The notes under the pieces were generated by a model. The model was not told the origin of the DNA, ran no database searches, and saw only the letters and a program-made list of their open reading frames with translations. A program made the position numbers and the translations under genes. Source: Phycisphaeraceae bacterium (GTDB taxonomy: Bacteria > Planctomycetota > Phycisphaerae > Phycisphaerales > SM1A02). From it: a stretch of DNA of 64,000 bases. The DNA lies in assembly GCA_015709595.1 (NCBI GenBank), contig CP054178.1:2795205-2859204 (forward strand), in the 5' to 3' direction. Position 1 is the first letter of the stretch. Every line of letters starts with the position of its first letter. This document shows positions 22,511-60,293 of this stretch, piece by piece.

Positions 22511-25279
22511 TCAATCGAAGGCGTAGGCGAAGTCGTTGTCGTGGACGCTGATGTGGACGCGGGTGATGCTGCGGCCGTCGATCATGCGGTTGAGGACTTC
22601 GGCGCTGATGGTGGGGAGGACGGTGTTGGTGAGGATGGCGTCGATCATGCGTCCGCCGCTTTCGAGTTCGGTGCAGCGGCTGCCGATGAGGGTGATGACG
22701 GCGGGGTCGTAGTCGAAGGGCACCTTGTGCGTTCCGCGGACGCGCCTGGCGATGCGTGAGAGCTGGAGTTTGCAGATGGCGGCGATCATCTCATCGCTGA
22801 GGGGGTAGTAGGGGATGGTGACGATGCGGCCGAGGAGTGCGGGCGGGAAGACCTTGAGCAGGGGTTCGCGGAGGGCCTTGGCGAGCTGGTCGGGCTCGGG
22901 CTTGAGGTCCGGGTCCTTGCAGAGGTTCATGATGAGGTCGGTGCCGGCGTTGGTGGTGAGCAGGATGATGGTGTTCTTGAAGTCGATGAAGCGTCCCTCG
23001 CCGTCCTCCATCCATCCTTTGTCGAAGACCTGGAAGAAGATTTCGTGGACGTCGGGGTGGGCCTTTTCGACCTCGTCGAGAAGGACGACGGAGTAGGGCT
23101 TGCGTCGGACGGCCTCGGTGAGGATGCCGCCCTCGCCGTAGCCGACGTATCCGGGCGGCGCGCCCTTGAGGGTGGAGACGGTGTGGGCCTCCTGGAACTC
23201 GCTCATGTTGATGGTGATGACGTTCTGTTCGCCGCCGTAGAGTGCCTCGGCGAGTGCGAGGGCGGTTTCGGTCTTTCCGACGCCGGAGGGTCCGGCGAGC
23301 ATGAAGACGCCGATGGGCTTCTGGGGGTTGTCGAGCCCGGCGCGTGAGGTCTGGATGCGCTTGGCGATCATCTCCATGGCGTGCCGCTGTCCGACGACGC
23401 GGTCGGAGAGGATGGAGGCGAGGTTCATGACGGTCTGAATCTCGTTGCGCATCATGCGTCCGACGGGGATGCCGGTCCAGTCGGCGACGACGGAGCCGAC
23501 GGCCTCGGCCCCGACGCTGGGGAGGATGAGGGGTGTTTCGCCCTGGAGTTCGGCGAGTTGCCGCTGGAGTTGGTGGAGGTGGGCGAGGATGTCGGCGCGT
23601 TCCTGTTGGGAGAGGTCGCTGCCGGCGCCGGTGCCGGCTTCGAGCGACTTGGCTTCCCTGGCGGCGGCGTCCCTGGCGGCGGCCTGTTCGAGCTTGGAGC
23701 CGGTGCCCTCGACGGGGGCGGCGTCGCCTCGCAGGCGGGCGCGGGCGCGCAGGACTTCCTCGACGAGTGAGCGTTCCTTCTCCCAGCGGGCTTCGAGGAG
23801 GGCGAGGCGCTCCTTCTCATCCGCCAGCTTCTGCCCGGCGGACTTCTTGCGTTCGGCGACGTCGATGCCGATCTTCTCCTCGCGGGCGATGATGTCGAGC
23901 TCGGTGGTGAGGGCCTCGATGCGCTTGCGGCAGTCATCCACCTCGGCGGGGACGGCGTGCTGGCTGATGGCCACGCGGGCGCAGGCGGTGTCGAGCAGGG
24001 AGACGCACTTGTCGGGCATCTGCCGGGCGGGGATGTAGCGTGCGGAGAGGCGGACGGCGGCCTCGATGCCTTCATCGAGGAGCTGGACCTTGTGGTGCTT
24101 CTCCATGGTGGAGGCGACGCCGCGCATCATGAGGATGGCGCGCTCCTCGGTGGGCTCATCGACCTGCACCACCTGGAAGCGGCGGGTCATGGCGGGATCC
24201 TTCTCGATGTGCTTCTTGTACTCCGCCCAGGTGGTGGCGGCGATGGTGCGCAGGGTGCCGCGGGCCAGGGCGGGCTTGAGGAGCTGGGCGGCGTCGCCGG
24301 TGCCCGCCGAGCCGCCCGCGCCCATGAGGGTGTGGGCCTCGTCGATGAAGAGGATGATGGGCTTGGGGGAGGACTGGACCTCCTCGATGACCTGCTTGAG
24401 GCGGTTCTCGAACTCGCCCTTCATGCTGGCGCCGGCCTGGAGCAGGCCGACGTCGAGCGAGCGCAGGGTGACATCCTTGAGGGAGGGCGGGACGTCGCCC
24501 CGCGCGATGCGCAGGGCGAAGCCCTCGACCACGGCGGTCTTGCCCACGCCCGCCTCGCCGGTGAGGATGGGGTTGTTCTGGCGTCGGCGCATGAGGATGT
24601 CCACGATCTGGCGGATTTCCTCGTCGCGTCCGACGACGGGGTCGATCTTGCCGGAGCGTGCCTGCTCGGTCATGTCCACGGTGAACATGCGCAGGGCCTC
24701 GTTCTTGCCCATCTGGGCGGGCGCCATGGCGCCGCTGGCCTCGCCCGGCGCGCCCGGTCCGCCGGCGGCGGCCTGGAAGCCGTCGGAGGCGGTGAGGGAC
24801 TCCTCGACGGAGCCGGCGACGACTTCCCTGAAGCGATTCTCCAGCGTCTCGGCGGAAATCTTGTCGAACTCCCGGCTGATGGCGAGGAGTTCGTGGCGCA
24901 GCCCGCGCGTGCGCAGGATGCCGACCATCAGGTAGCCGGTGCGCACCTGGGGCTCGTTGAACATGAGGGTGGCGTAGACCCAGCCGCGCTCGACGGCCTC
25001 CTCGACGTGCGGGGAGAGGTCGGAGATGGTGGTGGAGCCGCGCGGCAGGCGATCGAGCGCCTCGGTGACGTCCTTGGCCAGGCGCGAGGGTTCGAGGTTG
25101 AACTGCTTGACGATCTTGACGAGGTCGCAGTCGTTGAGCTGGAGGATCTGGTGGATCCAGTGGACCAGCTCGACGTTGGGATTGCCCCGCATCTTGCAGA
25201 AGACGGTGGCGGCCTCGATGGCCCGGTAGGCCACCTTGTTGAGCTTTCCGAACAGGGCTGCCCGTGAGATCTCGGCCAT
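22511..25279 (-). CDS. tssH: T6SS sheath-recycling ATPase ClpV
   Basis: A 922-residue Hsp100/ClpB-type AAA+ protein. The N-terminal Clp repeat domain (about 1-160) has the sequence style of ClpV. The first Walker A is GEAGVGKT (241-248) and the second GPSGVGKT (663-670). A coiled middle domain lies around 400-560. ClpV extracts and disassembles contracted TssB/TssC sheaths. It is the last gene of the T6SS run, 31 bp after tssG, with GAGGAAAG before its ATG. Downstream is the hairpin-repeat block, a plausible terminator for the locus. Confidence 0.96.
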   Translation of the reverse strand: MAEISRAALFGKLNKVAYRAIEAATVFCKMRGNPNVELVHWIHQILQLNDCDLVKIVKQFNLEPSRLAKDVTEALDRLPRGSTTISDLSPHVEEAVERGWVYATLMFNEPQVRTGYLMVGILRTRGLRHELLAISREFDKISAETLENRFREVVAGSVEESLTASDGFQAAAGGPGAPGEASGAMAPAQMGKNEALRMFTVDMTEQARSGKIDPVVGRDEEIRQIVDILMRRRQNNPILTGEAGVGKTAVVEGFALRIARGDVPPSLKDVTLRSLDVGLLQAGASMKGEFENRLKQVIEEVQSSPKPIILFIDEAHTLMGAGGSAGTGDAAQLLKPALARGTLRTIAATTWAEYKKHIEKDPAMTRRFQVVQVDEPTEERAILMMRGVASTMEKHHKVQLLDEGIEAAVRLSARYIPARQMPDKCVSLLDTACARVAISQHAVPAEVDDCRKRIEALTTELDIIAREEKIGIDVAERKKSAGQKLADEKERLALLEARWEKERSLVEEVLRARARLRGDAAPVEGTGSKLEQAAARDAAAREAKSLEAGTGAGSDLSQQERADILAHLHQLQRQLAELQGETPLILPSVGAEAVGSVVADWTGIPVGRMMRNEIQTVMNLASILSDRVVGQRHAMEMIAKRIQTSRAGLDNPQKPIGVFMLAGPSGVGKTETALALAEALYGGEQNVITINMSEFQEAHTVSTLKGAPPGYVGYGEGGILTEAVRRKPYSVVLLDEVEKAHPDVHEIFFQVFDKGWMEDGEGRFIDFKNTIILLTTNAGTDLIMNLCKDPDLKPEPDQLAKALREPLLKVFPPALLGRIVTIPYYPLSDEMIAAICKLQLSRIARRVRGTHKVPFDYDPAVITLIGSRCTELESGGRMIDAILTNTVLPTISAEVLNRMIDGRSITRVHISVHDNDFAYAFD

Positions 25280-25310
25280 GGGTGGAACTTTCCTCGTTGG
25301 TGGAGTCAGA

Positions 25311-26330
25311 TCACAGATCGCCGGACTGTAGCACGAGGTCGTCCGGGTCGCGGTTGAGCGGCTGGGCGTGCAGCCAGGTGGTCCATCCGAGGCGACCGTC
25401 GCGCCCGAGCTGGACGCTGGGCACCTCGTCGCGTCGCAGGATGAGCTGGACTTCCCACTGCAGCATCCGTCCGAGATAGTTGCGGATCCAGTCGCGCAGA
25501 CGGGTGAACCCGATCGTGCCCGGCAGGAATCGCAGGTAATCCTTCAGACGCAGAGGCCCGAAGACCAGCCGGAACTTCTGCTGACAGTCCCACACCCTGG
25601 AGCCCACGATGGAGGTGCGTCCGAGCGCGCCGGTGGCGCGGGATTCACCCAGACGGCACTGGTACTCGCGGGGCAGGTCGATCCACTGACCGACGAATTC
25701 GACGATGCGCACGGGAACCTGAAAGAAGTCGGACAGGATCGCGGTGAGGCCTTCGGCGTTGCGGGACTGGGCGGCCAGCCGCCCGGCGTAGTGCAGCTTC
25801 GCTTCGTCCGGCAGCGAGTCGCGCTGGTGGAGCGTGGAGAAGGCGTGGCCGAACAGCGAACCGACGTACACCGCGAAGCGGTCCTCATTGGCGCGATCGC
25901 GGCTGACTGTGATCTCGCCGGAAGACCACGCCCGGTAGAAGAGCGAGAGCATCCGGTGGTGGAAGACGTCGAGAAAGCGGGTCAGCGTCGGATCATGCGC
26001 GTTGAGTTCGCGGTTGCGGACGTAGTCGGTCAGGTGGATGGGCAGCGGGCCGTTGGGGCCGAGAAACCCGAAGAACCGGACGGTCATGACCGGCACGGGC
26101 GAGGAGCCGCGCGGCCCGAAGCGGGCCAGCGTGGAGGGGGCGAACGCCGCCGACGCCTCCTGGGCGAAGCGCACGGGGTCGTCGGCCAGCCGCTGCGACC
26201 ATCCCACGCGCGGCAGGTGCGGGTGCTCGCACTCCAGCCGTCGGACGGCCTGGAAGTAGTCGTACTCCCACGGCGCCCGGGCCAGCCGCTCGGTCAGAGG
26301 ATGTTCAGAAGCCCGGTTCTCGCCGGCCAC
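25311..26330 (-). CDS. tssG: T6SS baseplate protein TssG
   Basis: A 339-residue TssG (ImpH/VasB) protein. Family features include the N-terminal FQAVRRLE, RFFGFLGPNGPLP near 95, a DVFHHRMLSLFYRAW segment near 130 and the late FGPLRLKDYLRFLPG. TssG joins TssF and TssE in baseplate wedges. The frame is open far upstream inside tssF, but the GTG at 26330 is selected. GGGGAGG lies 7 nt before it and homology begins right after. It overlaps the end of tssF by 37 bp, pointing to coupled translation. Confidence 0.93.
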   Translation of the reverse strand: MAGENRASEHPLTERLARAPWEYDYFQAVRRLECEHPHLPRVGWSQRLADDPVRFAQEASAAFAPSTLARFGPRGSSPVPVMTVRFFGFLGPNGPLPIHLTDYVRNRELNAHDPTLTRFLDVFHHRMLSLFYRAWSSGEITVSRDRANEDRFAVYVGSLFGHAFSTLHQRDSLPDEAKLHYAGRLAAQSRNAEGLTAILSDFFQVPVRIVEFVGQWIDLPREYQCRLGESRATGALGRTSIVGSRVWDCQQKFRLVFGPLRLKDYLRFLPGTIGFTRLRDWIRNYLGRMLQWEVQLILRRDEVPSVQLGRDGRLGWTTWLHAQPLNRDPDDLVLQSGDL

Positions 26331-28168
26331 TGCTTGACCTCCCCTCGTTGCGCGCTGCGGATGGTGGTGGTGGTGAACACGTTGAGCGTGGCGTACTTGG
26401 CGAAGAAACGCTCCAGCACCGCGCCCAGCAGGAAAATGCCGGTGCCTTCGAAGGCCGCCTCGTCGAGCGTCACGGCGACTTCCAGGCCGCGGGCAAAGGA
26501 GACGGGACCGGCGCCGTGAATCCGCCGGATCACCGGGCGGCTCTGCACCTGCTTGACGCCTTCGATCTGCTTGCGGATCTCCGGCCTCGTCGCGTCGGCA
26601 TACAGCCCGAGCAGGTCGCGCAGCGCCGCGGCGGCGTCGCCCTTCTGCGTGTCCAGCAGGGTCAGGTAGTTTGGGCGCAGGTGGTTCACGAGGCGCCAGG
26701 CGAAGTCGCCCTCGGCCAGCGACGGCGCGGGCGGCGTGGGCGTGCCCACGCACCGGATGGCCGCCACGGGTGCGCCCGTCTCCAGCGTGAAGTCCGTCGG
26801 CCCCTGCCCGATGGGCATGTGGATGGGCAGATCGCGATTGGTGCACAGGGCGGTGACCGCCAGCTGCTTCAGATCGCCCCGCCAGGGGGCGGCGTTGACA
26901 TCCACCAGCGACAGATACGTCTCGCTGCCCGCGTACCGCGAGGTGCGGCGTCGCCCGAGCTTCTCGCGCTCGCTGAGCACCCGCGGCACGCGCGTCACCG
27001 CGTAGTACCGGGCGTCCGCCGTGGCGGCGCTGTCGCGGGCCGTGTAGAAGGGCTCGAACCGCTGCTCGTCCGTCACACCCGAAGCGCCGTAGCCCACCAC
27101 GTCGTGAATCCTGTAGACCTCGTAGTCGAGCGGGGCCGTCCGGTCCGGCACCACGTGAAACTCAGAGGTCCGATCGGTGATGTGGATTCGGTCAAGCCGC
27201 TTCTCGAACAGGTTGACCGCGGGCGCGCAGTTGAGCAGGAAGTTCGCCGCGGACACGGCGTTCTCCAGCTCGATGTCCGCCGAGCGCAGCAGGATCGTGA
27301 AGTCGATGACGTCGCCCTCGGTGCGTCGGAACGCGCCGTTGAGACCGGTGAGATCGACGAACATGAAGCGGTCGGAGAACGCGAAGTACTCCTGAAGAAG
27401 GCGATAGCCGTGGAACGACCGCGGACCGTAGGGCAGCATGGCCTGATCGTCGTCAAAACCCACTTGCCTCAGGCAGGGCGGCGGCACCGGCGCGACCCAC
27501 TTGGGCGGACGGGCGGGCGCGTGCATGAAGACGCCGCACACGTGGGTGAAGAGCGCCTCGTACAGCCGCATGGCCGTCGCACCCTGTCCCCGCAGGTGCA
27601 GAGTGAGTCGATCGACGGGCAACTGGTTGAACTTCTGCCCGGCGGTGGCCCGCAGCCGCAGGCGAAGGGCGGCGCGGGCATGGCGGGTGTTCTCCAGTCC
27701 GAGCGAACCCAGATCCCGCGTGTGGTACGCCGCCTCGATGATTTCGATCGGCCACAGCCGCACGGGATGCACGGTGGAGTAGATGCAGCGGGTCTGTTCA
27801 CCCTTGGGAAGAATGCTGCGCAGGGGGCTGCCGCGTGGAATCTCCGGTCCCTCGGCCAGACTGCCCTCGGTCAGATCCGCCTGGAACTGCACGATGGCCA
27901 TGGATGGCATCGGACAGAGGTAGTGCGGGTAGACCACCTCCAGCAGGTGCTGCGTGAACCGCGGGAACTCCGACTCGATCTTGAGCTGCACGCGGGCCGC
28001 CATGTACGCGGCGCCCTCCAGCAGGCGCTCCACGTATGGATCGGCGCATTCGAAGCCCTCGAGTCCCAGTCGTCCCGCGATCTTGGGAAAATCGCGTGCG
28101 AACTCCGCCGCCGACTCACGGAGATGCTGCAACTCCCGGTTGTACAGCCGCAGCAGTCGCTCATCCAT
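26294..28168 (-). CDS. tssF: T6SS baseplate protein TssF
   Basis: A 624-residue TssF (ImpG/VasA) protein of normal family length. The N-terminus LLRLYNRELQHLRESAAEFA, followed by PKIAGRLGLEG and DPYVERLLEG, is diagnostic, as is FPRFTQHLLEVVYPHYL near 68. It forms the baseplate wedge with TssG. Its ATG overlaps the tssE stop by one base (TGATG). Confidence 0.96.
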   Translation of the reverse strand: MDERLLRLYNRELQHLRESAAEFARDFPKIAGRLGLEGFECADPYVERLLEGAAYMAARVQLKIESEFPRFTQHLLEVVYPHYLCPMPSMAIVQFQADLTEGSLAEGPEIPRGSPLRSILPKGEQTRCIYSTVHPVRLWPIEIIEAAYHTRDLGSLGLENTRHARAALRLRLRATAGQKFNQLPVDRLTLHLRGQGATAMRLYEALFTHVCGVFMHAPARPPKWVAPVPPPCLRQVGFDDDQAMLPYGPRSFHGYRLLQEYFAFSDRFMFVDLTGLNGAFRRTEGDVIDFTILLRSADIELENAVSAANFLLNCAPAVNLFEKRLDRIHITDRTSEFHVVPDRTAPLDYEVYRIHDVVGYGASGVTDEQRFEPFYTARDSAATADARYYAVTRVPRVLSEREKLGRRRTSRYAGSETYLSLVDVNAAPWRGDLKQLAVTALCTNRDLPIHMPIGQGPTDFTLETGAPVAAIRCVGTPTPPAPSLAEGDFAWRLVNHLRPNYLTLLDTQKGDAAAALRDLLGLYADATRPEIRKQIEGVKQVQSRPVIRRIHGAGPVSFARGLEVAVTLDEAAFEGTGIFLLGAVLERFFAKYATLNVFTTTTIRSAQRGEVKQWPARTGLLNIL

Positions 28169-28683
28169 CAGCGTGACCCCCGACCGATGGACTCATCCAG
28201 CAGAATGGAGCCGGACTCCAGATCGACTCGCGTCTGCAGGTACAGGTTCTCCGGCACCGGTTCGGCCCACAGGTCGCCCGTAATCTCCAGCGACAGCACG
28301 TTGGGCGCGCCGTGATCCTCGGAGATGATCGCCTTCACCCGGAGCGAGGGCGGAAGAATCCGCGGCTCGAACCGCAGAATGGCTTCGCGCACGCGTTTCT
28401 CCACGTCCGCTACATCGAGCCCTGACGCCGTGCCGCCCGTCATGTCGCGCAGACCGAAGTTCAGCACGGACGACTGCACCTGGGGATAGTCGTCAAGCAC
28501 GCCCTGACCATCCCAGTTGCTGGTGTTCAGCAGCCACTCCAGGTCTCGCAGCACGACCTCCCGCAGGCGCCTCATCGACAGCACGCGCTTGTCGCGCGAC
28601 TCGACCTGCTTGTCCGGCTCGTCATCCGTGAGCCGGTCGAGCAGCGACGGCTGGAGCAGCTCCTTGGGAATGAGTTCAGGCAT
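28168..28683 (-). CDS. tssE: T6SS baseplate protein TssE (gp25-like)
   Basis: A 171-residue gp25/lysozyme-like baseplate protein. Typical elements are SLLDRLTDDEP near residue 13, RRLREVVLRDLEWLLNT near 38-54, and VQSSVLNFGLRDMTG near 68. It is homologous to phage T4 gp25 and helps start sheath assembly. The frame extends upstream into tagJ, but the ATG at 28683 starts the conserved part. It overlaps tagJ by 8 bp. Confidence 0.93.
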   Translation of the reverse strand: MPELIPKELLQPSLLDRLTDDEPDKQVESRDKRVLSMRRLREVVLRDLEWLLNTSNWDGQGVLDDYPQVQSSVLNFGLRDMTGGTASGLDVADVEKRVREAILRFEPRILPPSLRVKAIISEDHGAPNVLSLEITGDLWAEPVPENLYLQTRVDLESGSILLDESIGRGSR

Positions 28684-29482
28684 GGGTCGTCTGATGGAGC
28701 GTGATCGTCCGGATGTCCAGCAGCGCGTGCTCCCCGGCGTCGGTGGCCAGCAGTCGCTGCCCCTGACCGACGAAGAGATCATGACCACGATCGATCCACT
28801 CAGTCTTTCTGGCCAGGCGGATCAGGTCGTCGGGGTTTGATTCGCTGGCGGGGTATCGGGTGGGGATGACGCCGACGGCTTCGCCGCCGTTGACCCACGT
28901 GAAGTAGGCCGGTGCCCACACGAAGTCACGCAGATCGGCGGGTGGCTCGATCCTGATCTCGCGGATGTTGGTGAAGGGAACCCAGAAGTACCGTCCATTG
29001 ACGATGACTTCCAGCACCGGGCCGAGCCGTGGGTCGGCGTCAGCGATCCACTCGAAGGGCTGACCATCCAGCGTGCCCGGCGAAGCAGGGGCCGCGTCGA
29101 ACGCCCGGCTGCGCAGGTCAGCGGCGGCCTGATCCTGACCGTGGGCCAGCAGGCGGACGGCCTCGATGAGCAGCCCGATCCACTCGGGGGGCTCGCCCAG
29201 CACGAGCGGCGAACGCTTTCCCGCGAAGACTTCGGCCCGCAGGGCCTCGTTTCGCAGGGCCTCGCGGTACATCTGCGCCATTCCGAGCGCGATGGGGTCG
29301 AGTTCCGCCGCCACGTTCAGCTGCGTGAGGGCCTTTTCCCACTCACCGCGAATGGCCTGAAGCTGGAAGAGGAAGATGCGATGCCTGGCGACCGATGGAT
29401 TGGCGCGGATCGTTCGCTGCAGTTCCTCCAGCGCTGGATCGACGCGTGCTTCGGCGAGCAGTTGTTCGGCGGAAGTGGCCAT
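28676..29482 (-). CDS. tagJ: T6SS accessory protein TagJ (ImpE family)
   Basis: A 268-residue ImpE/TagJ protein. A TPR-like N-terminal half (EELQRTIRANPSVARHRIFL, then GEWEKALTQL) precedes the domain with FEWIADADPRLGPVLEV and WVPFTNIREI near 170-200, characteristic of the family. TagJ binds the TssB N-terminus in systems studied and may tune ClpV recruitment. The ATG at 29482 is preferred over 29515 because AAAGG lies before it and homology starts there. An intrinsic hairpin lies between it and hcp, so its expression may be lower than that of hcp. Confidence 0.9.
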   Translation of the reverse strand: MATSAEQLLAEARVDPALEELQRTIRANPSVARHRIFLFQLQAIRGEWEKALTQLNVAAELDPIALGMAQMYREALRNEALRAEVFAGKRSPLVLGEPPEWIGLLIEAVRLLAHGQDQAAADLRSRAFDAAPASPGTLDGQPFEWIADADPRLGPVLEVIVNGRYFWVPFTNIREIRIEPPADLRDFVWAPAYFTWVNGGEAVGVIPTRYPASESNPDDLIRLARKTEWIDRGHDLFVGQGQRLLATDAGEHALLDIRTITLHQTTHA

Positions 29483-29546
29483 CCCAACCGCACCTTTCTC
29501 GAGAGAGTGATCCATCGGCGGGGCCGAGGGACGACGAATCGGCGAA

Positions 29547-29580
29547 ACGGGACGGCGGGCGCCTGGTCCCGCCGTCCCGT
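29547..29580 (-). terminator. Strong hairpin between hcp and tagJ
   Basis: A perfect 13-bp stem (29547-29559 with 29568-29580, sequence ACGGGACGGCGGG) and 8-nt loop, followed on the minus strand by TTC. It lies just past the hcp stop. The weak T run suggests partial termination or protection of the 3' end of an abundant hcp transcript. Confidence 0.6.
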
Positions 29581-29607: not shown

Positions 29608-30108
29608 TCAGGAGCCGCTGTTCCATTCCTGGTTCTTGACGCGGTCCCAGCCCTTGGCGCCGAAGGCGGTGTACGTTTCGCCGTCGGTGGTGGTGTAGTA
29701 CTTCATCCAGATCTTGTGGTACCACAGGGTGACGGATTCATTGGGGCGGTCATCGTCGGAGGCGTCGATCGACCACGACGCAACGATGGCGTTGTCCAGC
29801 TTGAACTCGAGGTAGACCGCCACCTTGCCGCTCACGCCCGCGGTGGAGACGAACTTGAGCTCCGCGGTTCCCAGCGCGCCGCCGGCGATGGCGTTCTGCA
29901 TCAGGTCCACGGACGCGGTGTCCATGGACTTGGCCAGACTGATCGGCGGCAGCGCCGCCACGCCGACGTTGATGTCCTTGGTTCCGACCTTGCCGCTTTC
30001 CGCCAGTTCGCGCTCGATGTTCCACGAGCAGCTGGAGCAGGTGATGTACTTCTCGTAGCCGGGCACGTTGCAGTCGCCGATGATCTTCGGCAGCTTCAGC
30101 AGAATCAT
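29608..30108 (-). CDS. hcp: T6SS inner-tube protein Hcp
   Basis: A 166-residue Hcp (TssD) protein, which stacks as hexamers to form the secreted inner tube. The start MILLKLPKIIGDC and the pattern CSWNIERE near 27 fit the Hcp beta-barrel, as does the late pattern SVTLWYHKIWMKYY. AAAGGA precedes the ATG. Cys pairs at CSSC (about 24-27) are an individual trait. It lies between tssC and tagJ and is bounded downstream by a strong hairpin. Confidence 0.93.
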   Translation of the reverse strand: MILLKLPKIIGDCNVPGYEKYITCSSCSWNIERELAESGKVGTKDINVGVAALPPISLAKSMDTASVDLMQNAIAGGALGTAELKFVSTAGVSGKVAVYLEFKLDNAIVASWSIDASDDDRPNESVTLWYHKIWMKYYTTTDGETYTAFGAKGWDRVKNQEWNSGS

Positions 30109-31741: not shown

Positions 31742-32260
31742 TCAGCCCTGGGCGTTTCCATCACCCTCGGGCTTCGGCGCCGAGGCGAGCGACTGCAGCA
31801 GGGCGGGATCTTTCAGCACGCGGGACAGCAGCTCCTCCGCGCCGGCCTTGCCGTCCATGAACGTGAGCAGGTTGGCGAGCTGGGACCGGGCTTCCAGCAG
31901 CTTGCGGAGCGGCTCGATCTTGCGCGCCACCGCCGCCGGAGAGAAGTCGTCCATGCTTTCGAAGGTGATGTCCACGCTCATCTCGCCCTCGCCCGTGAGC
32001 GTGTTGGGCACGCGGAACGCGGCGCGGGGCTTCATCGACTTCAGCCGCTCGTCGAAGTTGTCCACGTCGATGGTGAGCACCTTGCGGTCCTCGACCGGGG
32101 CAAGCGGATCCGCCGGCTTGCCCGACAGATCCGCCATGACGCCCATGACGAAGGGCAACTGGACCTTCTTCTCGGCGCCGTACAGCTCCACGTCGTATTC
32201 GATCTGGACGCGCGGGGCGCGGTTGCGCGCAATGAATTTCTGCGAGCTTTGCTTGGCCAT
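31742..32260 (-). CDS. tssB: T6SS sheath protein TssB
   Basis: A 172-residue small sheath subunit (VipA/ImpB). The segments RVQIEYDVELYG, KVQLPFVMGVMADLSG and KVLTIDVDNFDERL are typical. The C-terminal helices (about 110-150) interlock with TssC. AAGGAG lies 9 nt before ATG 32260, making this start better than the upstream in-frame one at 32305. Confidence 0.96.
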   Translation of the reverse strand: MAKQSSQKFIARNRAPRVQIEYDVELYGAEKKVQLPFVMGVMADLSGKPADPLAPVEDRKVLTIDVDNFDERLKSMKPRAAFRVPNTLTGEGEMSVDITFESMDDFSPAAVARKIEPLRKLLEARSQLANLLTFMDGKAGAEELLSRVLKDPALLQSLASAPKPEGDGNAQG

Positions 32261-32323
32261 GCCGACGTACTCCTTCTGCGCCGTCCGACTCCCGTCGCGG
32301 CGCACGGTTGTTCAGAATCCCGA

Positions 32324-33409: not shown

Positions 33410-33481
33410 GCACACACCCACAAGGTTCATGGTTCCGTCGAGCCGCCTCGGCGTGCGGGCAGAACGGGATTGTGCGGCATT

Positions 33482-44550: not shown

Positions 44551-44616
44551 GTCCGATGCACTCCTCTTCACGGCGCGCCCGAGCACGCATCAGGAGATCA
44601 GGTCACGACATGACTT

Positions 44617-50784: not shown

Positions 50785-50786
50785 GG

Positions 50787-52160: not shown

Positions 52161-52176
52161 GTCGCGCAAGCCGCAC

Positions 52177-53103
52177 TCAGCGGCTCAGTCCTTTCATGAG
52201 CCGTTCAGCGTACTCGGCGATGAGTTGCATGATGTCCCGCTCGATGGTCGCCTGATCCGATGTGCCCCACAGTTCACGGTATTTTCGCCAACTGGCGACC
52301 GGAACGGACTCCAGCGTCTTCTTCTCGCGGCGGGCGGTGTCCTCGATGCTGTCGGGCGCGAAGCGAGCGTACTGCTGCTGGGCGTACTGCCGACCGGTCT
52401 GGCTGATCGCGGACACCAGGGCGGCGGTGAGCTGCCGGAGACGCTCGAGCTGCTGCGTCACTTCCCCGCGCGGAACGTCCGGGTCGCCGGACAGGTAGGC
52501 GGGAAGGGTCTTGCGCCACTCGCCCCCGCCGCGGATCTCTGATCGCGGGTTGATGGCCTTCCATGTCGTCCACCCCACTTGGTCAAGCGAACCGAGCAGG
52601 TCGACGAGCATCTGCATCACTTCCAGCGTCCGGGCGGGGTCGAGCGACTGGCTCTCCGGCATCTTCAGGTGCGCCCGGAGCTTGTCGGCGGCCTGCTCCG
52701 GCCAGACCTGCTTGCCTTCGGTGGAAAGTCCCGCCTCGCGCAGTCGGATGGCGGCCTTGCGGCGGTCCTCCGCCGACAGGGTGGGCGCCAGTTCGATCAA
52801 TCGCGTGAGCAGAAAGCTCACGTCCTTCAGCTCCTTCACGTCGGTGGCGGAGAGGTCCATGGCGTCGGCCGCTCCTTTGGCGGTGAGCCCGCCGCTGTCC
52901 CAGGATGGGAAAATCTCCATCAATTCCTTCAGCACCGCGGCCCGCTCCGACGGCACCACCTTGTTCAGGGCGCGCTCGACCTCGTCGGCGAGATACTGCT
53001 GACGCACCTCCGGCGTCTCATCGGCCAGATCGGCCTGCACCAGGCGCAGTCGATTGGCGGTGGAAAGAACCAGTCGGGATCGTTCGCCGCCTGCGGTGGA
53101 CAT
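52177..53103 (-). CDS. Hypothetical protein encoded beside tssK
   Basis: A 308-residue soluble, mostly helical and charged protein without signal peptide, membrane segment or catalytic motif that I recognise. Notable stretches are LADEVERALNKVVPSER near 38 and WRKYRELWGTSDQATIERDI near the C-terminus. It is 16 bp upstream of tssK on the same strand, and the next gene upstream (FGE protein) is also in the run, so a structural or regulatory T6SS role is inferred from position only. It might be the helical C-terminal part of an FHA-type (TagH/ImpI) protein, but no FHA motif is seen. Confidence 0.7.
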   Translation of the reverse strand: MSTAGGERSRLVLSTANRLRLVQADLADETPEVRQQYLADEVERALNKVVPSERAAVLKELMEIFPSWDSGGLTAKGAADAMDLSATDVKELKDVSFLLTRLIELAPTLSAEDRRKAAIRLREAGLSTEGKQVWPEQAADKLRAHLKMPESQSLDPARTLEVMQMLVDLLGSLDQVGWTTWKAINPRSEIRGGGEWRKTLPAYLSGDPDVPRGEVTQQLERLRQLTAALVSAISQTGRQYAQQQYARFAPDSIEDTARREKKTLESVPVASWRKYRELWGTSDQATIERDIMQLIAEYAERLMKGLSR

Positions 53104-53184: not shown

Positions 53185-56100
53185 TCACGGAGCGCCCAAT
53201 GCCCGTCTGGCGGGGGTATCGAAGGCGGCGGTGCTCGTTTCGAGCACCCATTCCGCCAGCGTGGTGAAGCGACCGCGGGGCTCCAGCACCAGGCGGAAGC
53301 CCACGTCCGCGAGGCGCATGAACTTCAGCTGCCCGCCGAAGGTGCGAGGATCAACCCGCTGGCGAACCAGCGGGTCAAGCGAAGGCGGCGACATGGACGA
53401 CCCGCCCATCACGCCCAGCAGGTCCGCGCGAAGGGCGGTGTCCGCGTCGGCAGGGGTGAGAATCCGCCGGTCCCGACCTTCCCGGAAGACCAGCGGATCG
53501 TCATACGTCCACTCCATCACGTTGCCCAGCAGATGCTCGAAGTTCATCACGGGATCACCCGGAATCTCCGTAAAGTACAGCACGCCGTCGTCATAGCCCG
53601 TGAGGTGCGAGTCGGCGTCCGCCGACGACGAACGCGAGGGGTTGTTGAACGAACCCCGATCGGGCGTGATGAGGGTCTGGTTCAGTTGAGCGGCGACCTC
53701 GACCATGTGAGCCCGCTGTCGCTCGAAACGGGTGTCCCGGAGATTCGGCGCCGGAGTCAGCGCGCCGCGCTGGATCTCGCCCTTGAGCCGATCCCAGTCG
53801 GTGATGAACGGATTGCTGTAGGACTGTCGGATCGCCGCCTGAAACTCCAGGTTGGTCGGCAGACGACAACCCAGCAGCGATGCCGCGTAGGCGGCGGCGG
53901 TTGGCGACAGGTGCTGCATTGGATAATTGCGATCCGGCAGCCGGGAGTCGATGTCGGTGTTGATGTCCAGTCGCACGTTGTCGGCGTTGCGCCATTGGTC
54001 GGTGTCGGCTCGCCAGGCCGGACGTTCGCCCTGACGCAACGGCAGGGGCGGCGAGATCAAACCCGGTGGGTTTCGCCGGTATTGCCACACGCGCGGGCCA
54101 TAGCGGCGATCAACCTGCGCACCGACATCCACCAGGTGCTCGGCCACGCCCTGAAGACCTCGCGCCCGGTTGATCGTGTCCGCGAACAGGTTGAATGAAA
54201 CCTCGGTGGTCGAAAGGTACACGGGCGACTTGAAGCCCAGTTCCTTCAGATCAGGCGCCCGGCTGGGGTCCACCAGACGGAAGATCAGATGGATCGGGCG
54301 CTCACCGGCGGTGGCGTAATGGACCCAGGGCGGCGGCGCATTTCCCTGCCTCGGCCCTTCCTGGACCAACCGCCAGCCCTGGGCCACCCGCTCATCGGGG
54401 CTGGCGGAAGGCCCGATCCTGGTGAAGTCCACGCGCGTGTTCTCCGGCGCCAGCATGTCGTTCAACTCGGTCAGGAACGACGCAACCTGCTGCGTGGAAC
54501 GCACCGTGGCGTCCATCGCGCCCATGTCGGCGAGGAACTGTCGGATCAACGGCGTGGTCAGTTCATCATCCTGAGATGCACCGCCCTGATCGATGCGCTG
54601 CCGGAACGCCATCAGGTCAAGGTTCCAACCCACCCACGGCGGCATCTGCTCGCGTCGAGCGTGGAATCGCCCCATCTCACGCAGCATGGCCTCGATCTCC
54701 ACCGCCGATACGCGGGTCGCCAGGTGGTTCAGCCAACGGTTCGGCGCCTGCCCCCGGAGGCGATCGGACAGCCGCCTTGCGCGATCCGCCTCGTCCAGAC
54801 GCGACAACAGGGCTTCGTATCGCTCCAGGGCCTCGGCATGCAGCCGCAGGGAATCGGCGTCCCCGGCGATGGGAAGTTCACCCAGCCGCTCCCAGACCGC
54901 CCGCGTGATCTCGATGCGATCAGCGTGCTCCGCGGCCGATCCGTAGGCGGAGACGGATTGAAGGTCGTCGAGCGTGGACACCCGCTCCAGGTCGCTGATG
55001 CGCGTGAGGAGCCCGGAGAAGACGTCGGCGAACCCGTCCAGCGAAGCAGCGTCCATCGACGCCGGGCGTCTCCATGCCGCAAGCATGGTCCGAATTGTCC
55101 CCTGGTTCTCGTCCGGCTCGTCGGGCAGGTAGGCCAGGTCGAGCAGACGCCGCAGTCGATCAAGGTCGGCGAACAACCCGGTCACCGACTGCTGCCACGC
55201 CGCGAATGACTGCTCTTCGCGCTGCAGGGCGCTGCGAACCGTCTCGTGCTCCAGCGAGGCGCCGCTCCCTCCCGGCGCGGCCAGACGGTTCAGGGACTGC
55301 ACCACGACCGCAACGCCCTGCTCGCGACGATCCTCGGCATGACGCCGCGCCAGGTTGGGTTCGGGCGCGGCATCCAGAATCTCCCGAACGGAGGGTTCGA
55401 GTTTCAGTCGATTCAGCACCAGGTCGCTCAGAGCGGACTCGAAATCCAGCGTCGCCCCGTTGAACGCGAGGTATTTCGATCGATCCGCTTCGTACTGTCC
55501 AGCGTCGCCGGCGCGGGCGAAGTATTCATCCCAGGCGCGCTGCGCGGAGGCCGAGGCGAACCGGACCGCGCGCTTCCGCTCGAGGAACTCCGCCGGCGGT
55601 TGAAGGACGATCCGGTGGACCGCCTCGGTGTCGTTCAGCAGACGGGCCAGTTCCGTCCTGACCCGCTGATCCGATGCAACGATGTCCTGACGATCGCGTT
55701 CGATCAGCGGTCGCTCGTGCAGGGCCGTCAGCGCCGCCGTCACCTCGGCGCGGCGCCGCGCCAGGTCGTCCACTTCCGGCAGGCGGCGTCCGTGCAGAAA
55801 CTCGTTGACTTCTCCCAGGAGTTCATCGACTTTCCCGGTCGTGGTTGCCGCTTCGGCGCGGGCAAGCCGCGGATCAGGCGCGATGATGCGATAGCCCCGC
55901 GCGGATTCCGCCCAGGACTCAAAGGTCGCGGCATCGTTCAGTCGCGACGGGTCAACGGGATGTTCGGCGACCAGCAGATCCCAGCGAAGCCCCGATTCGT
56001 CGATGGACGACACGTCGTCGATCCGCCGCGCCAGCGGCAGCAGGTCCGCCGCCTGCCTCGCCAGCGCTTCGAGTGACGAAGCGCCAGTCAGCCGCCCCTG

Positions 56101-57672
56101 CGACCAGCGGACGAACGCGCCGGGCGCCGGGCTGGGGCGCTGCGAGGCGACTGCCTCGATCCGGCTGATCGCATCCAGCAATGCGAAGGTCGCCTCATGT
56201 GCGGATCGCACGCCGGCCAGTTGCACCACCATCTCGGCCAGCCCCTTCGGCTCCTCGTCCTGCAATCCGACCAGCAGGGCGCGAAGTTCGCGGGCCGGCC
56301 CGTCCAGACCGATGCCAGCCAGCTGGTCGGCGGCGTTGGAGCACTCGGTGGCGAGCGCGCTTTCCCGAAGCGACTGCTTGAGAGAATCCAGCAGGACGAC
56401 GGCGCGCTGAACCCGCGCGTTCTCCGCCTCCGAGAACCAGCGGAGACGCAGCTCGGGCTTGAGGATGTAGAACTGAAAGTTCCGCTGCGACTCGATCACG
56501 TCGCGGTTCTCAACGTCGTCGAGCAGGCGGGGGACGGAGGTCGGTTCTCCCTCGCGCCGCGGCTCGCCGGGATTCGGTCTCAGACCGAAGTAACGGCGCG
56601 GATCAAACTGCACCTGTTCGGCGGCGGCGGCGGAGCCGAATCGGTCCAGAATGCCGTTCAAATCGTCCAGCACCGCGCGCATCGACTCGCTGGTCCTCGC
56701 CGTCTGGAACGGGTCTCGACCCGCCCTTCGTTCGACGAAGAGGCGGGCTTCGAAATCGGTGAACCAGTCCTCGCAGGCCTCGCTCAGCGTCATCAGATCG
56801 CGGCGCAGGGGCTCCACCTGCGCCTCACTGATGGTGGCGACGTGGAAGAACTGAAAGTACACGAGCAACCCCACGCCGATCGTGGCGGCCAGCCCGCCCC
56901 CAGCCAGCACCGGCTTGCGCAGACTGCGCGGTTCGATGGGGAGCGACTCGATCGCCTGCCGAATGGTGACGGGCTCGCGGCCCGCGCCGGGATCGAGCCA
57001 GCGATTGACGGTGTTGAGCCAGGCCTCGCCGCTGCGACCAAGCCGTTTCCACGCCTCGGTCATCTGGAGCGGCCATCGGGCCGCGGCCCATGCGGGTCGA
57101 CGCTCCACCACCTGTTCGATCAGCCGCGCCGTCGCGCGAAGGTCGGTCGTCACCGGGTCGCCCGAAGCGGTCGGTGAGGGGTCCGTGAGCGTCACCCGCG
57201 CTTCGGTCAGGTCGTCGAGTCGATCCAGCAGCACCTGCCGGGGGTGGAGAACGCCCACCGGGCGGGCGGCGACGGCGTGGAACGCCTCGACGCCCAGCAG
57301 AACCTGCTCGACAAGCGTGCGCAACCCGGCGGCGTCAACACGCACGCCTCGATCGATCAGGGACTGCGCCGAGACGAGGGAGTGAACGCGATGCACCACC
57401 ACGCGCCCCTCGGTGAGCGACACGTGATCGACCCGGGCCCAGCGATCCGACGCAGCGGCGACCTCGCGCTGGACGCCTGCGGCCTCCGCGAACAGACGCA
57501 GTTCAATCGCCGCGCGGGCGTTGCCCTGCAGCAGCGGCGAGGGCTCGAAGACGCGCGCGACCGTTGGCGTCTCGCCGCGAGAGCTGCGCCCGGTCGCACC
57601 GACCGCGTGCAGGGATTCGATCCCGTCGCCCCAGATCCGCTCCCCCAGCGCGATTCCCCCTCCGGACGGCAT
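53185..57672 (-). CDS. Pseudokinase-like, single-TM, FGE-sulfatase-domain protein
   Basis: A 1,495-residue protein. Residues 30-230 look like a degenerate protein kinase: GVLHPRQVLLDR near 140 occupies the place of the HRDxKxxN loop without its Asp, and TLTDPS near 161 stands for DFG. One membrane segment lies at about 254-278. A long, helix-rich, probably extracytoplasmic region follows (about 280-1240). The C-terminal 230 residues form a formylglycine-generating-enzyme-like domain: GCRLPTNLEFQAAI, HLLGNVMEWTYDD and VGFRLVLEPR. FGE-like domains are often non-enzymatic in signalling proteins. Kinase and FGE genes occur in T6SS threonine-phosphorylation modules elsewhere. GGAAG precedes the ATG. 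Confidence 0.78.
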   Translation of the reverse strand: MPSGGGIALGERIWGDGIESLHAVGATGRSSRGETPTVARVFEPSPLLQGNARAAIELRLFAEAAGVQREVAAASDRWARVDHVSLTEGRVVVHRVHSLVSAQSLIDRGVRVDAAGLRTLVEQVLLGVEAFHAVAARPVGVLHPRQVLLDRLDDLTEARVTLTDPSPTASGDPVTTDLRATARLIEQVVERRPAWAAARWPLQMTEAWKRLGRSGEAWLNTVNRWLDPGAGREPVTIRQAIESLPIEPRSLRKPVLAGGGLAATIGVGLLVYFQFFHVATISEAQVEPLRRDLMTLSEACEDWFTDFEARLFVERRAGRDPFQTARTSESMRAVLDDLNGILDRFGSAAAAEQVQFDPRRYFGLRPNPGEPRREGEPTSVPRLLDDVENRDVIESQRNFQFYILKPELRLRWFSEAENARVQRAVVLLDSLKQSLRESALATECSNAADQLAGIGLDGPARELRALLVGLQDEEPKGLAEMVVQLAGVRSAHEATFALLDAISRIEAVASQRPSPAPGAFVRWSQGRLTGASSLEALARQAADLLPLARRIDDVSSIDESGLRWDLLVAEHPVDPSRLNDAATFESWAESARGYRIIAPDPRLARAEAATTTGKVDELLGEVNEFLHGRRLPEVDDLARRRAEVTAALTALHERPLIERDRQDIVASDQRVRTELARLLNDTEAVHRIVLQPPAEFLERKRAVRFASASAQRAWDEYFARAGDAGQYEADRSKYLAFNGATLDFESALSDLVLNRLKLEPSVREILDAAPEPNLARRHAEDRREQGVAVVVQSLNRLAAPGGSGASLEHETVRSALQREEQSFAAWQQSVTGLFADLDRLRRLLDLAYLPDEPDENQGTIRTMLAAWRRPASMDAASLDGFADVFSGLLTRISDLERVSTLDDLQSVSAYGSAAEHADRIEITRAVWERLGELPIAGDADSLRLHAEALERYEALLSRLDEADRARRLSDRLRGQAPNRWLNHLATRVSAVEIEAMLREMGRFHARREQMPPWVGWNLDLMAFRQRIDQGGASQDDELTTPLIRQFLADMGAMDATVRSTQQVASFLTELNDMLAPENTRVDFTRIGPSASPDERVAQGWRLVQEGPRQGNAPPPWVHYATAGERPIHLIFRLVDPSRAPDLKELGFKSPVYLSTTEVSFNLFADTINRARGLQGVAEHLVDVGAQVDRRYGPRVWQYRRNPPGLISPPLPLRQGERPAWRADTDQWRNADNVRLDINTDIDSRLPDRNYPMQHLSPTAAAYAASLLGCRLPTNLEFQAAIRQSYSNPFITDWDRLKGEIQRGALTPAPNLRDTRFERQRAHMVEVAAQLNQTLITPDRGSFNNPSRSSSADADSHLTGYDDGVLYFTEIPGDPVMNFEHLLGNVMEWTYDDPLVFREGRDRRILTPADADTALRADLLGVMGGSSMSPPSLDPLVRQRVDPRTFGGQLKFMRLADVGFRLVLEPRGRFTTLAEWVLETSTAAFDTPARRALGAP

Positions 57673-57706
57673 GCGATCGCTTCCGTTCAGGGTGTCGGGA
57701 GAGGGA

Positions 57707-58243
57707 CTACTTGACCTTCTCCGGTTTCATGGCGGAGACGCACTGCACGCCGTCGGACTTGACCACGATGTTGATCTGCTGACGGTCGTTCCAGCGCGCG
57801 GTGCTCAGCGGGAGAACCAGCCGCCGGGTGTCGCCGCCCGTGCTGGTGACGCCCGAACCGGGGATGCTCGCCAGCAGCACCACGTGCATGGCGCCCTGGT
57901 TTCTCCAGGTGTTCCACACCTGGGCGTCGTATCGCAGCGTCTGGGGCTGCGGCTGCTGATTGCTGAAGCTCATGGTGTGGCGCGTGGCATTGGCCCGGCG
58001 TGCGTTCCGGGGCGAGAAGTAGTCGTCAACGTTCTGGGCCTCCCAGGTGGGCTTGTCCAGCTCCGTCACGCCGACGATGTCCACTTCGAAGGACACCATG
58101 GAGCCGCCGCTGCGCAGACTCTCATCGGGGCTCACCACGAACGTGTACTGTCCCATCTTCGGCGTGGAACTGCAGCCCATGAACGCCGAGCACGCCAGCG
58201 AGAGCAGCAGCATCCACCATCCAAGTCGCATGAGCGTTGACAT
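57707..58243 (-). CDS. Lipoprotein, TssJ candidate
   Basis: A 178-residue probable outer-membrane lipoprotein. The hydrophobic signal is followed by Cys24 in AFMGCSS, and the mature part is predicted beta-rich. Size and context fit TssJ (SciN), the lipoprotein that anchors TssM, but sequence identity to TssJ is not evident to me. Segments QTLRYDAQVWNTWRN and ARWNDRQQINIVV may form beta strands. GGAG lies 8 nt before the ATG. It lies between two kinase-like genes of the T6SS run. Confidence 0.7.
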   Translation of the reverse strand: MSTLMRLGWWMLLLSLACSAFMGCSSTPKMGQYTFVVSPDESLRSGGSMVSFEVDIVGVTELDKPTWEAQNVDDYFSPRNARRANATRHTMSFSNQQPQPQTLRYDAQVWNTWRNQGAMHVVLLASIPGSGVTSTGGDTRRLVLPLSTARWNDRQQINIVVKSDGVQCVSAMKPEKVK

Positions 58244-58322
58244 GTCCGTCGCTCCTGATCCACGTGTTGCGGGTTGGTTTGTTCCCCCGGCCGAGTCGTC
58301 GAATCATACCCGGAATCATCGT

Positions 58323-60293
58323 TCACCGCGCGCCGATTCCCAGCCCGATCTGGCGAAGCACCGCGTGAATCTCCCGGTTGAAGCGCCAGTCGATGACGAT
58401 CAGACTCCGCGACTTGACGATCAGGTCGCCGACGTTCTTGAGCACCGGATCGAAGATGCGGTGGATGCCGCCCGACGGAGCGTCGGCGAAGTCGCGGCAG
58501 TGGCTATCCGGTCCCGCGCCCGGGAACAGGCGCACCAAGGTCGCCAGCACGTCGTACCACAGTTCCGCGGGAATCAGGTCGCGGGCCTCGGCCGGGTCCA
58601 TGGACTGCCTCAGGAGCCGGTGCGGCCCGAGCGAATCCTGCCACCGGGGGTCGCGAGCCATGATCGTGGCGATGCGTTCGCGCAGGGGCGTGTGCTCGTC
58701 GTACTCCACCTGCAACTGGCGCGCCAGCGAAAGGAGCTCGTCCAGCGCGACGGGAAGGGTGTTGTCGCGGTTCACCAGCAGCGTGCGCACGCCCAGCACG
58801 CCCAGGGCGTACATGTCCTGCGGGGAGGTGAGCAGCGGAACGACCTCGAACGGCACGTTCCCAAGGGGGATGCCCGCCGCGTCCTTGAGCGCGGAGCGCA
58901 GGTCGGTCGAGAACTGGTGCGGCACGGTGCGGAACCGCTTCTCGCCGCTGGCCATGGCGGCCTGCTCGTCGAACCGCGCGTACAGGTCAACCGGCTTGTC
59001 GCGAACGGTCAGTCGAAGCCAGACCAGGTCGTTGCGGGCGCACGTGAACCGTTCCTGTGTGTCAAACGTGCCTTCGAGAATCGTCTCCTTGTCGGTGTCG
59101 GACACCGCGCCGCGCAGCCGAACCACGCCGCGACCGCTGGGCGCCGCGGCCGCGGAGACCGGGTGATACACGGTCAGCCCATCCTGCCCCCGAGCGAAGT
59201 ACGCCGTATCCGTGCCCCGGATCGGCAGCCGGATCGCGGCGCCGGGATCGACCAGCACGGCGGATGCCGCCCACAGGCGCGGCAGTCCGGCGCTCTGCGT
59301 CGCCAGACGTACGCGGAAGGAATCGGCGTTCAGATTGAGCAACGGGGCCTGGGTCATCCGCACATGGCGATGAACGGCTGCGATCGCGTCCCCCAGCATG
59401 CGGATCTTCAGGTGCAGCGTCTCGATGATGCGCCCCGCCCTTCCGTGACGTCCCTGGAACAGCCAGTCCTCTCCCAGCAGGTGACCTTCGGGGATGACCA
59501 TGGGTTCGTCGAGGTCCGGACCCAGGTCGATCGCCTGTCGGCCGTGCCGCACGCCTTCCCACGCCTCGCCTCCGAGCACGTCGATGAATGACTCATACAT
59601 CAGCGGCAGGTGCTCGCGAATGCGCAGCAGCCCGGCGCCGGGGTTGAGTGCCGGCGCGGTCGAGATCGTCATCAGCGCCTGCTCACGCGTGACGCACCGA
59701 TCATTCGTCGGGGCATCCGCCGAGGTGGGGGCGAAGGAACCCGTCGTACCGGCACGCCAGTAGCGGTGCAGCGACCCGCCATACGCGGGCAGACCGGCGG
59801 CGGTCAGCGCGGCGTCATCGACGCAGAGCCGCCATGCTCCGGCGGTCTCCCCCTGTGATCCACCCTGACCCGGTGTGACGCATGATCCGGTTTTCAGGTC
59901 GACGTAGGTCGGCGCGGGATGATCGGCTTCCCAGCCGATTCGAAAGAGCGGAGCGTCGGGCACCGCGTCGCACGCCTCCACGTTCGACTGCCAGCGATCA
60001 TCCAGCAGGCGGTTGGTCACGGCCTGACGTGCCCCGTGCAGGCCGCGGGCCACGCGGTCAATGTCCTGAAACGCCATCTCCAGCCAGCGATGCACACGTC
60101 CCCCGGCATCCAGCAGACATCCGAGGAGGACGCGGGCGTCGGCCTCCTCCCGCAGCGTGACAAAGTGGCCGGCAACGGGGTCTGGCTCGCGGCGGGCCAC
60201 CACGCAAGCTTGCAGTACGCCCATGGAGACGCTGCCCTCCAGGGGGACGGCCAGGTAGGCGTCGGAAAGCTTCCATCGGGGTTTGGAAGGCAT
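58323..60293 (-). CDS. Kinase-fold (probable pseudokinase) protein, first gene of the T6SS run
   Basis: A 656-residue soluble protein. Two regions resemble protein kinase landmarks: AVHRHVRMTQAPLLNLNADS (near residue 310-330) at the place of the catalytic loop, and SPQDMYALGVLGVRTLL (near 515) in place of the DxYxLGxLxxELL helix. The catalytic Asp and the glycine loop are not seen, so it is probably inactive. The reading is tentative. ATG 60293 is favoured because the upstream extension would need a TTG. It heads the minus-strand run, about 290 bp from the divergent redoxin gene, so the locus promoter probably lies there. Confidence 0.65.
   Translation of the reverse strand: MPSKPRWKLSDAYLAVPLEGSVSMGVLQACVVARREPDPVAGHFVTLREEADARVLLGCLLDAGGRVHRWLEMAFQDIDRVARGLHGARQAVTNRLLDDRWQSNVEACDAVPDAPLFRIGWEADHPAPTYVDLKTGSCVTPGQGGSQGETAGAWRLCVDDAALTAAGLPAYGGSLHRYWRAGTTGSFAPTSADAPTNDRCVTREQALMTISTAPALNPGAGLLRIREHLPLMYESFIDVLGGEAWEGVRHGRQAIDLGPDLDEPMVIPEGHLLGEDWLFQGRHGRAGRIIETLHLKIRMLGDAIAAVHRHVRMTQAPLLNLNADSFRVRLATQSAGLPRLWAASAVLVDPGAAIRLPIRGTDTAYFARGQDGLTVYHPVSAAAAPSGRGVVRLRGAVSDTDKETILEGTFDTQERFTCARNDLVWLRLTVRDKPVDLYARFDEQAAMASGEKRFRTVPHQFSTDLRSALKDAAGIPLGNVPFEVVPLLTSPQDMYALGVLGVRTLLVNRDNTLPVALDELLSLARQLQVEYDEHTPLRERIATIMARDPRWQDSLGPHRLLRQSMDPAEARDLIPAELWYDVLATLVRLFPGAGPDSHCRDFADAPSGGIHRIFDPVLKNVGDLIVKSRSLIVIDWRFNREIHAVLRQIGLGIGAR

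Follow-up and report, generated by a model that had tools for sequence, protein, structure and literature searches.

The window analysed here, a 64-kb stretch of the 3.84-Mb, one-contig genome of a Phycisphaeraceae bacterium, carries a type VI secretion system (T6SS) gene cluster that has a two-partner secretion (TPS) pair, the exporter TpsB and the filament protein TpsA, set among its core genes. Nineteen open reading frames (ORFs) run from 60380 to 22511, all on the minus strand and separated by intergenic gaps of -113 to +105 bases, which bears out the preliminary description of 19 genes on one strand with tiny gaps or overlaps. The core genes tssA, B, C, E, F, G, H, K, L and M are present together with hcp, each identified by Pfam, and with a VgrG gene elsewhere they make up the gene set of a T6SS; tagJ, also named in that description, was likewise recognised, but tagF was not. 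VgrG is absent from the cluster itself and its single match in the genome is located elsewhere, while in the relative G380 VgrG follows tssH.

The TPS pair lies between the tagF-like gene and tssM on one side and tssA on the other, on the same strand as both, with 65 bases from the end of TpsB to the ATG of TpsA. The reading of the 3,004-residue protein as a filamentous haemagglutinin (FHA)-like TpsA was confirmed, and that of its neighbour as TpsB is supported by profile comparison and predicted fold. The N-terminal TPS domain of TpsA matches NCBIfam TIGR01901 at 71 bits (cut-off 29) over residues 86-161 and resembles TPS domains whose structures are in the PDB, namely those of EtpA, of an adhesin of the HMW type and of an HxuA-type haem/haemopexin-binding protein (E 4.6e-25 to 2.7e-18); no Pfam family matches TpsA at 1e-3, and its gene contains repeats of ~280 bases. 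TpsB has a weak Pfam ShlB match (8.5e-8) and no Pfam match to POTRA domains at 1e-3. By profile-profile comparison (hhalign) it matches the TpsB proteins of Burkholderiaceae and Rhodoferax over residues 71-636 (98.9%, E 1e-17), and the top Foldseek matches of its predicted model are FhaC and CdiB, albeit for a model with a mean predicted local distance difference test (pLDDT) of only 47 and an N-terminal part below 50. On profile and predicted fold, TpsB is a distant relative of FhaC. The same genome holds a second TPS pair, away from the T6SS, at C1:2127986.

The association recurs in other planctomycetes, for which gene maps were drawn with a mechanical ORF reader and BLAST against the proteins of the window and its relatives; cut TpsA fragments were labelled by BLAST at 1e-4 plus C-terminal similarity. 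Of 392 genomes sampled from the phylum, 30 contain a match to TpsB (query P0002) and 85 a match to TssC, and all five T6SS-positive genomes belonging to the class of the window (G000, G095, G380, G388 and G311) carry TpsB on the same contig and strand as TssC and no more than ~23 kb from it. A sample of 397 genomes from that class contained TssC in 74, with a TIGR01901 match in 38 of these. The T6SS locus, or the part of it on a single contig, was mapped in 41 of the 74, leaving 33 unmapped, and a TPS gene lies inside the locus in 27 of the 41 (G000, G095, G311, G380, G388, G432, G441, G459, G493, G503, G508, G511, G518, G524, G607, G609, G612, G621, G624, G627, G657, G680, G698, G716, G734, G743 and G746). 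In nine of the 27 a contig end cuts TpsA on the tssA contig (G432, G441, G493, G508, G511, G524, G621, G627 and G716), and for G627 and G716 TpsB was taken from another contig that is presumed to continue the locus.

TpsA is the same-strand upstream neighbour of tssA in 25 of the 27 linked loci, and the order TpsB-TpsA-tssA-tssB-tssC is common to several families of the class. The two exceptions are G311, where the pair sits between the tagF-like gene and tssH and TpsB belongs to a deep other branch, and G746, with a TssC identity of only 49%, where the pair occupies the same interval in inverted orientation. In G607, G518, G503 and G680 the pair is kept with tssABC, and no tagF or tssM was recognised beside TpsB. 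The tssA contigs of G663 and G731 stop at tssA, and both genomes stand outside the linked and unlinked counts. Outside the class, TIGR01901 was matched in 4 of 80 T6SS-positive genomes. One locus of another class, G145, has the order TpsA-tssA-tssB-tssC, the TPS genes of G064 and G307 lie away from the T6SS, and the contigs of G274 and G347 do not tell.

Some of these loci have further rearrangements. G095 (L039) and G621 (L064) carry, between tssA and tssB, an opposite-strand block that encodes another TssF-like protein and includes further large genes, TpsA and tssA staying together. A 477-amino-acid ORF lies between tssA and tssB in G417 (L053), G394 (L055) and G473 (L061), all genomes in which no TPS was seen beside tssA; an ORF of equal length adjoins the TPS pair that G417 has elsewhere (L090), and the two may be one gene, perhaps for a transposase.

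A scan of contigs by TssB alignment, from which the best 80 of at least 585 confirmed candidates were read in stretches of unequal length, extended the comparison beyond the planctomycetes. TssB identity across these 80 loci is 73-85%, and many share the order tssABC-hcp-tagJ-tssEFGH. In 10 of the 80, TpsA adjoins tssA or is separated from it by only a few genes, the same 10 being recovered after Burkholderiaceae references were added, and neither TpsA nor TpsB was recognised in the stretch covered for the other 70. The linked planctomycete records are L114, L141, L155 and L181, and the linked Paraburkholderia and Burkholderia records (L131, L159, L169, L180 and L182) are all five of those genera among the 80; in a Rhodoferax metagenome-assembled genome (MAG; L186) the pair is divergent from tssA. 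No TPS gene was seen in the stretches available for the planctomycete records L112 (a short one), L125, L132, L142, L145, L154 and L172. Record L155 (QWIH01000005.1) is titled 'Leptolyngbya sp. PLA1' and has a planctomycete-type TpsA-tssA T6SS locus; it is probably a mislabelled planctomycete MAG.

The RefSeq annotation of two Caballeronia replicons has tagF-tssM-tssL-tssK-tssJ on one strand, and a CHAT protein, an ShlB/FhaC protein, a filamentous haemagglutinin and tssA on the other. A CHAT-domain TPR gene precedes TpsB in the linked unit of Caballeronia and of a Paraburkholderia (L192 9634-11817, L193 9662-12007 and L191 11944-14193); none was recognised at the matching place in the window.

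The 300-residue C terminus of the Paraburkholderia diazotrophica TpsA was used as a query against further genomes, and since it was taken from a linked locus, some synteny among close orthologues is to be expected. Among 97 genomes of the genus, 19 gave matches, at 20 places in all if the two pieces in G822 are counted once. TssC is no more than 8.1 kb away, with contig and strand in common, at 19 of these places; the exception, in G848, is a weak match (E 6e-5). The 18 genomes with linked matches contain 89 TIGR01901 places, at least 18 of them within 15 kb of a TssC, so most TPS pairs in these genomes lie elsewhere. In 398 genomes of the family, five of whose matching genomes (G748, G774, G804, G818 and G820) are common to both samples, 40 matched the query, 31 strongly and nine weakly (E 5e-5 or worse). 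T6SS genes are near 30 of the 31 strong matches: tssA falls within the 1.5-kb flank in 24, three are linked according to the genus sample (G748, G774 and G820), and in G1051, G1060 and G1172 T6SS genes appear in longer stretches. Only G885 showed none, within ~12 kb downstream. Judged from these contigs, this one Burkholderiaceae TpsA family as a whole is almost always found at a T6SS. The TpsB of the window is only 23% identical to that of P. diazotrophica and 21% to that of Rhodoferax, a divergence that favours separate recruitment. The earlier proposal that the placement reflects a functional link and not chance is thus strongly supported, as TPS-tssA adjacency recurs across planctomycete families and in Burkholderiaceae with distant TpsB.

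A TpsB tree of 51 rows, built by a quick method and with several forks open, has 21 rows labelled linked, and the linked state changes 8 times over it, compared with an average of 16.5 when the labels are shuffled; at least 3 of the changes are required by branches with good support. With linked rows in several places, the label is therefore clustered yet not of one origin, and a single origin of linked TpsB is unsupported by the tree. Distances between TpsB proteins correlate with those between TssB/C proteins over 18 linked loci without G311 and G746 (r 0.68, p 0.0002), the correlation falling to r 0.29 (p 0.046) once these two are added; host relatedness is not removed from either value. 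Such agreement is as expected if the module was jointly inherited. G731 was counted as linked in the tree, the distance test and the length comparison below because its TpsA stops 126 bases from the contig start.

Linked filaments are also about double the length of the others compared. Complete T6SS-linked planctomycete TpsA ORFs measure 2,497-4,544 amino acids (median 3,327, n=18, G731 included; completeness was rechecked for 13 of the 18), compared with 1,178-2,931 (median 1,633, n=9) for unlinked TpsA in T6SS genomes and 898-5,474 (median 1,592, n=14) for TpsA in genomes without TssC. The difference gives a Mann-Whitney p of 1.4e-6, uncorrected for relatedness. The test excluded unlinked TpsA with N runs (G696 and G473) and any TpsA truncated where a contig or stretch stops. 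At the other end of the protein, the last ~250 residues are alike in most linked and several unlinked TpsA; the C termini of G612, a genome with the same gene order, and of L181, a Phycisphaeraceae MAG, share 94% identity. This C terminus is predicted to be helical (model mean pLDDT 51, with the final helices mostly at 82-91), and its model has no relative in the PDB (best E 0.31).

Coordinates and supporting evidence for the 19 genes of the cluster are collected in the table below.

Table. Genes of the T6SS cluster and its embedded TPS pair, in window coordinates.
Feature	Coordinates	Strand	Evidence
tssH (ClpV)	22511..25279	-	Pfam AAA_2 9.2e-55, AAA_lid_9 1.6e-29 (general ATPase models)
tssG	25311..26321	-	Pfam T6SS_TssG 7e-109
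tssF	26294..28168	-	Pfam T6SS_TssF 1.2e-234
tssE	28168..28788	-	Pfam GPW_gp25 6.7e-22
tagJ / ImpE	28676..29515	-	Pfam ImpE 8.7e-48
hcp (tube)	29608..30108	-	Pfam T6SS_HCP 2.8e-24
tssC (sheath)	30214..31716	-	Pfam VipB 6.9e-139
tssB (sheath)	31742..32305	-	Pfam T6SS_VipA 9.2e-59
tssA	32324..33430	-	Pfam ImpA_N 2.7e-33
TpsA	33482..42496	-	3,004 amino acids from ATG, ORF open to 42565; TIGR01901, PDB TPS domains, ~280-base repeats
TpsB, predicted outer-membrane exporter of TpsA	42562..44586	-	ShlB; hhalign; Foldseek FhaC/CdiB
tagF-like (tentative), 345 amino acids	44617..45654	-	kept beside TpsB or tssM in relatives; no Pfam or NCBIfam match
tssM (IcmF)	45611..50080	-	Pfam IcmF-related_N 1.4e-53
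tssL (DotU)	50077..50790	-	Pfam DotU 1.1e-23
tssK	50787..52169	-	Pfam T6SS_VasE 3.7e-66
308-amino-acid protein	52177..53103	-	no Pfam match at 1e-3; homologues adjoin tssK in G380, G388, G095 and G311
1,495-amino-acid protein, C-terminal FGE-sulfatase-like domain	53185..57672	-	Pfam FGE-sulfatase 2.2e-5
178-amino-acid lipoprotein, TssJ candidate	57707..58243	-	lipobox-type cysteine kept in 4 of 4 aligned homologues
685-amino-acid protein	58323..60380	-	no Pfam match; homologues in the G380 and G388 clusters

Several of the accessory assignments are tentative. The tagF label is based on motif resemblance and position: a comparison with a profile of Caballeronia TagF also failed to recognise the protein, a weak test with two-row profiles, and the counterpart in G311 matches TagF_N only at E 0.05. 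The tagF-like protein extends to ~1,500 residues in G388 (L036 14334-18782) and in its G380 counterpart, and that of G388 has a very weak FGE-sulfatase-like match near its C terminus (E 0.07). Likewise, the candidate TssJ lipoprotein gave no significant match to TssJ, including in a comparison with a Caballeronia TssJ profile that was equally weak. Read by eye, the 1,495-residue protein has one membrane helix and a degenerate kinase-like N terminus, the kinase reading being without Pfam support. No terminator-like site was found on the coding strand from TpsB to tssH. Two scans of both strands of 22.0-61.4 kb for sigma-70-like promoters found none, where 1.3 would be expected per scan, a result that says little in such an organism. 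Co-transcription of the TPS pair with the T6SS genes is plausible on the evidence of the gaps. Just past tssH, window positions 18000-22000 have a G+C content of 0.60-0.62 compared with ~0.67 around them and include genes for an adenine methyltransferase of the D12 class (18727-19662) and for an HNH endonuclease (21141-21923); the segment is possibly a mobile insert. Some 180 kb past the window lies another, divergent match to TssC/VipB (G000:C1:3036446-3037309, L213, 149 bits), which possibly belongs to a further contractile system.

Taken together, the identities of the genes, the kept adjacency to tssA, the recurrent origin of the linkage and the greater length of linked TpsA in the rows compared make it reasonably probable that the pair belongs to the T6SS locus as a dedicated module inherited with it, whose filament holds neighbouring cells for injection. 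The pair would be co-expressed with the T6SS from the same gene run, and TpsB would export TpsA to the cell surface, where its 3,000 residues may form a beta-helical filament tens of nanometres long, if known TPS proteins are a guide to length. Once displayed, the filament would bind a neighbour and tether it within reach, and the contact-dependent T6SS would then fire into the tethered cell. Co-transcription, surface display, binding of target cells and a need for the filament in T6SS killing are all presumed in this model. That a filament might draw cells together before firing was suggested in the preliminary description, and is an inference for which TasL of Vibrio fischeri provides a tested precedent as an adhesin encoded with a T6SS (PMC9040878). 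More tentatively, it is possible that TPS filaments were taken up again and again by the T6SS clusters of two or more phyla to function within the weapon itself, as a dedicated tether, and perhaps a contact sensor, that chooses the neighbour and the timing, in which case the conserved TpsA-tssA adjacency would mark a distinct class of T6SS with a built-in targeting arm.

A number of observations weigh against a dedicated tethering module. No TPS gene was seen beside tssA in the stretch read for 12 of the 41 mapped class genomes, the far side being mostly unread, such that a G311-like placement could escape. Three of these (G465, G548 and G578) have a T6SS of another lineage, but nine (G394, G410, G417, G473, G519, G570, G595, G628 and G696) have the same kind of T6SS, so the search of planctomycete relatives proposed at the outset has a divided outcome: 27 of the 41 mapped loci contain a TPS gene and these nine show none beside tssA. 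Furthermore, of the 33 T6SS-positive genomes of the class that were left unmapped, 32 have no match to TIGR01901, the exception being G513, and it follows from both results that TPS is not essential to the T6SS. Long TpsA also occur away from a T6SS (G441c, 2,931; G493, 2,873; and G352a, 5,474 amino acids). The length test makes the contrast look somewhat stronger than it is, because G746, which is linked but has an open frame of just 1,668 amino acids, and long, cut unlinked TpsA (G064, at least 3,732; G220a, at least 5,654 amino acids) fell outside it. Unlinked TpsA carry the C-terminal domain as well, so it is not specific to the T6SS.

The most probable alternative is a filament for kin aggregation, biofilm formation or surface attachment, which would share only its regulation with the T6SS and neither select nor hold prey. 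Cells living densely on a surface would have a use for both systems, adhesion or aggregation is the usual function of TPS adhesins, and unlinked TPS pairs occur in genomes without TssC, with no T6SS gene recognised beside them in the stretches read. However, shared regulation poorly explains a pair lodged between core T6SS genes in two phyla, or why nearly all strong matches to one Burkholderiaceae TpsA family are at a T6SS, and this explanation is considered rather unlikely. That an accessory adhesin was inserted into a T6SS island by chance, or hitch-hiked into it, is disfavoured and most improbable: accessory genes do gather in T6SS loci and the nine relatives showing no TPS beside tssA are compatible with it, but the same position in several families and two phyla, the forced changes on the TpsB tree and the retention of the pair with tssABC where tagF and tssM are not recognised beside it all argue otherwise.

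Two further explanations turn on the C terminus of TpsA. If the locus were a weapon island of the contact-dependent inhibition (CDI) type, TpsA would carry a polymorphic C-terminal toxin; CdiA and CdiB are TPS proteins, and CdiB is among the Foldseek matches of the TpsB model. The common helical C terminus argues against a variable toxin tip, as it is kept between distant relatives, and TpsA has no Pfam match at 1e-3. Neither a variable C-terminal toxin nor an immunity gene was found; in 25 of the 27 linked loci TpsA is followed by tssA, where a gene of the immunity type would be expected. A polymorphic toxin was consequently rejected, and a CDI-like system has scarcely any probability here. 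Alternatively, the pair could be a contact sensor, in which neighbour-bound TpsA signals through the periplasm to trigger T6SS firing. The conserved helical domain would suit such a role, and the membrane-helix protein with its kinase-like N terminus, together with the tagF-like gene, suggests post-translational control. Against this, the domain is shared with unlinked TpsA, the kinase reading lacks Pfam support and the TagF assignment lacks statistical support, making a sensor very unlikely.

Tested answers to how T6SS-bearing cells choose and hold a target include TasL (PMC9040878) and, reportedly, type IV pili (PMC10281587). A recurrent, built-in adhesin with its own exporter in named Burkholderiaceae strains would make T6SS target selection directly testable, TpsB-TpsA-tssA is a genomic marker for locating such systems, and some giant haemagglutinin-like proteins of planctomycetes would gain a role. 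TPS and T6SS had been described as normally independent machines, which agrees with the literature found, but in these lineages they form one locus. No earlier report of a TPS pair inside a T6SS cluster was found in the open-licence literature, albeit this is weak evidence of absence. Cooperation among secretion systems, type V included, is the subject of passages in a review that make no mention of genetic linkage (PMC10778856).

The locus can be set beside several known systems, from each of which it differs in part. T6SS clusters of the tagJ/ImpE type are found in many proteobacteria, and 70 of the 80 loci above have no recognised TPS genes in the stretch covered, unlike the window. The pair shares with FHA/FhaC, HMW1/HMW1B and EtpA/EtpB the TpsB-TpsA order, the TPS domain and an FhaC-like exporter, but is embedded in T6SS genes. 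CDI by CdiA/CdiB is a form of contact-dependent competition, and the window has in common with it TPS export and a large filament, without the variable toxin terminus or any visible immunity-type gene. The closest functional parallel may be TasL of Vibrio fischeri, a protein of more than 380 kDa that is encoded in the T6SS2 island, is produced together with the T6SS and is needed for cell contact and killing, with a proposed reach of up to 70 nm (PMC9040878). TasL is a predicted lipoprotein with fibronectin-type repeats, whereas the filament of the window carries a TPS domain and comes with a dedicated exporter, TpsB; what the two share, as far as the genes of the window tell, is a large adhesin-like protein encoded inside a T6SS locus.

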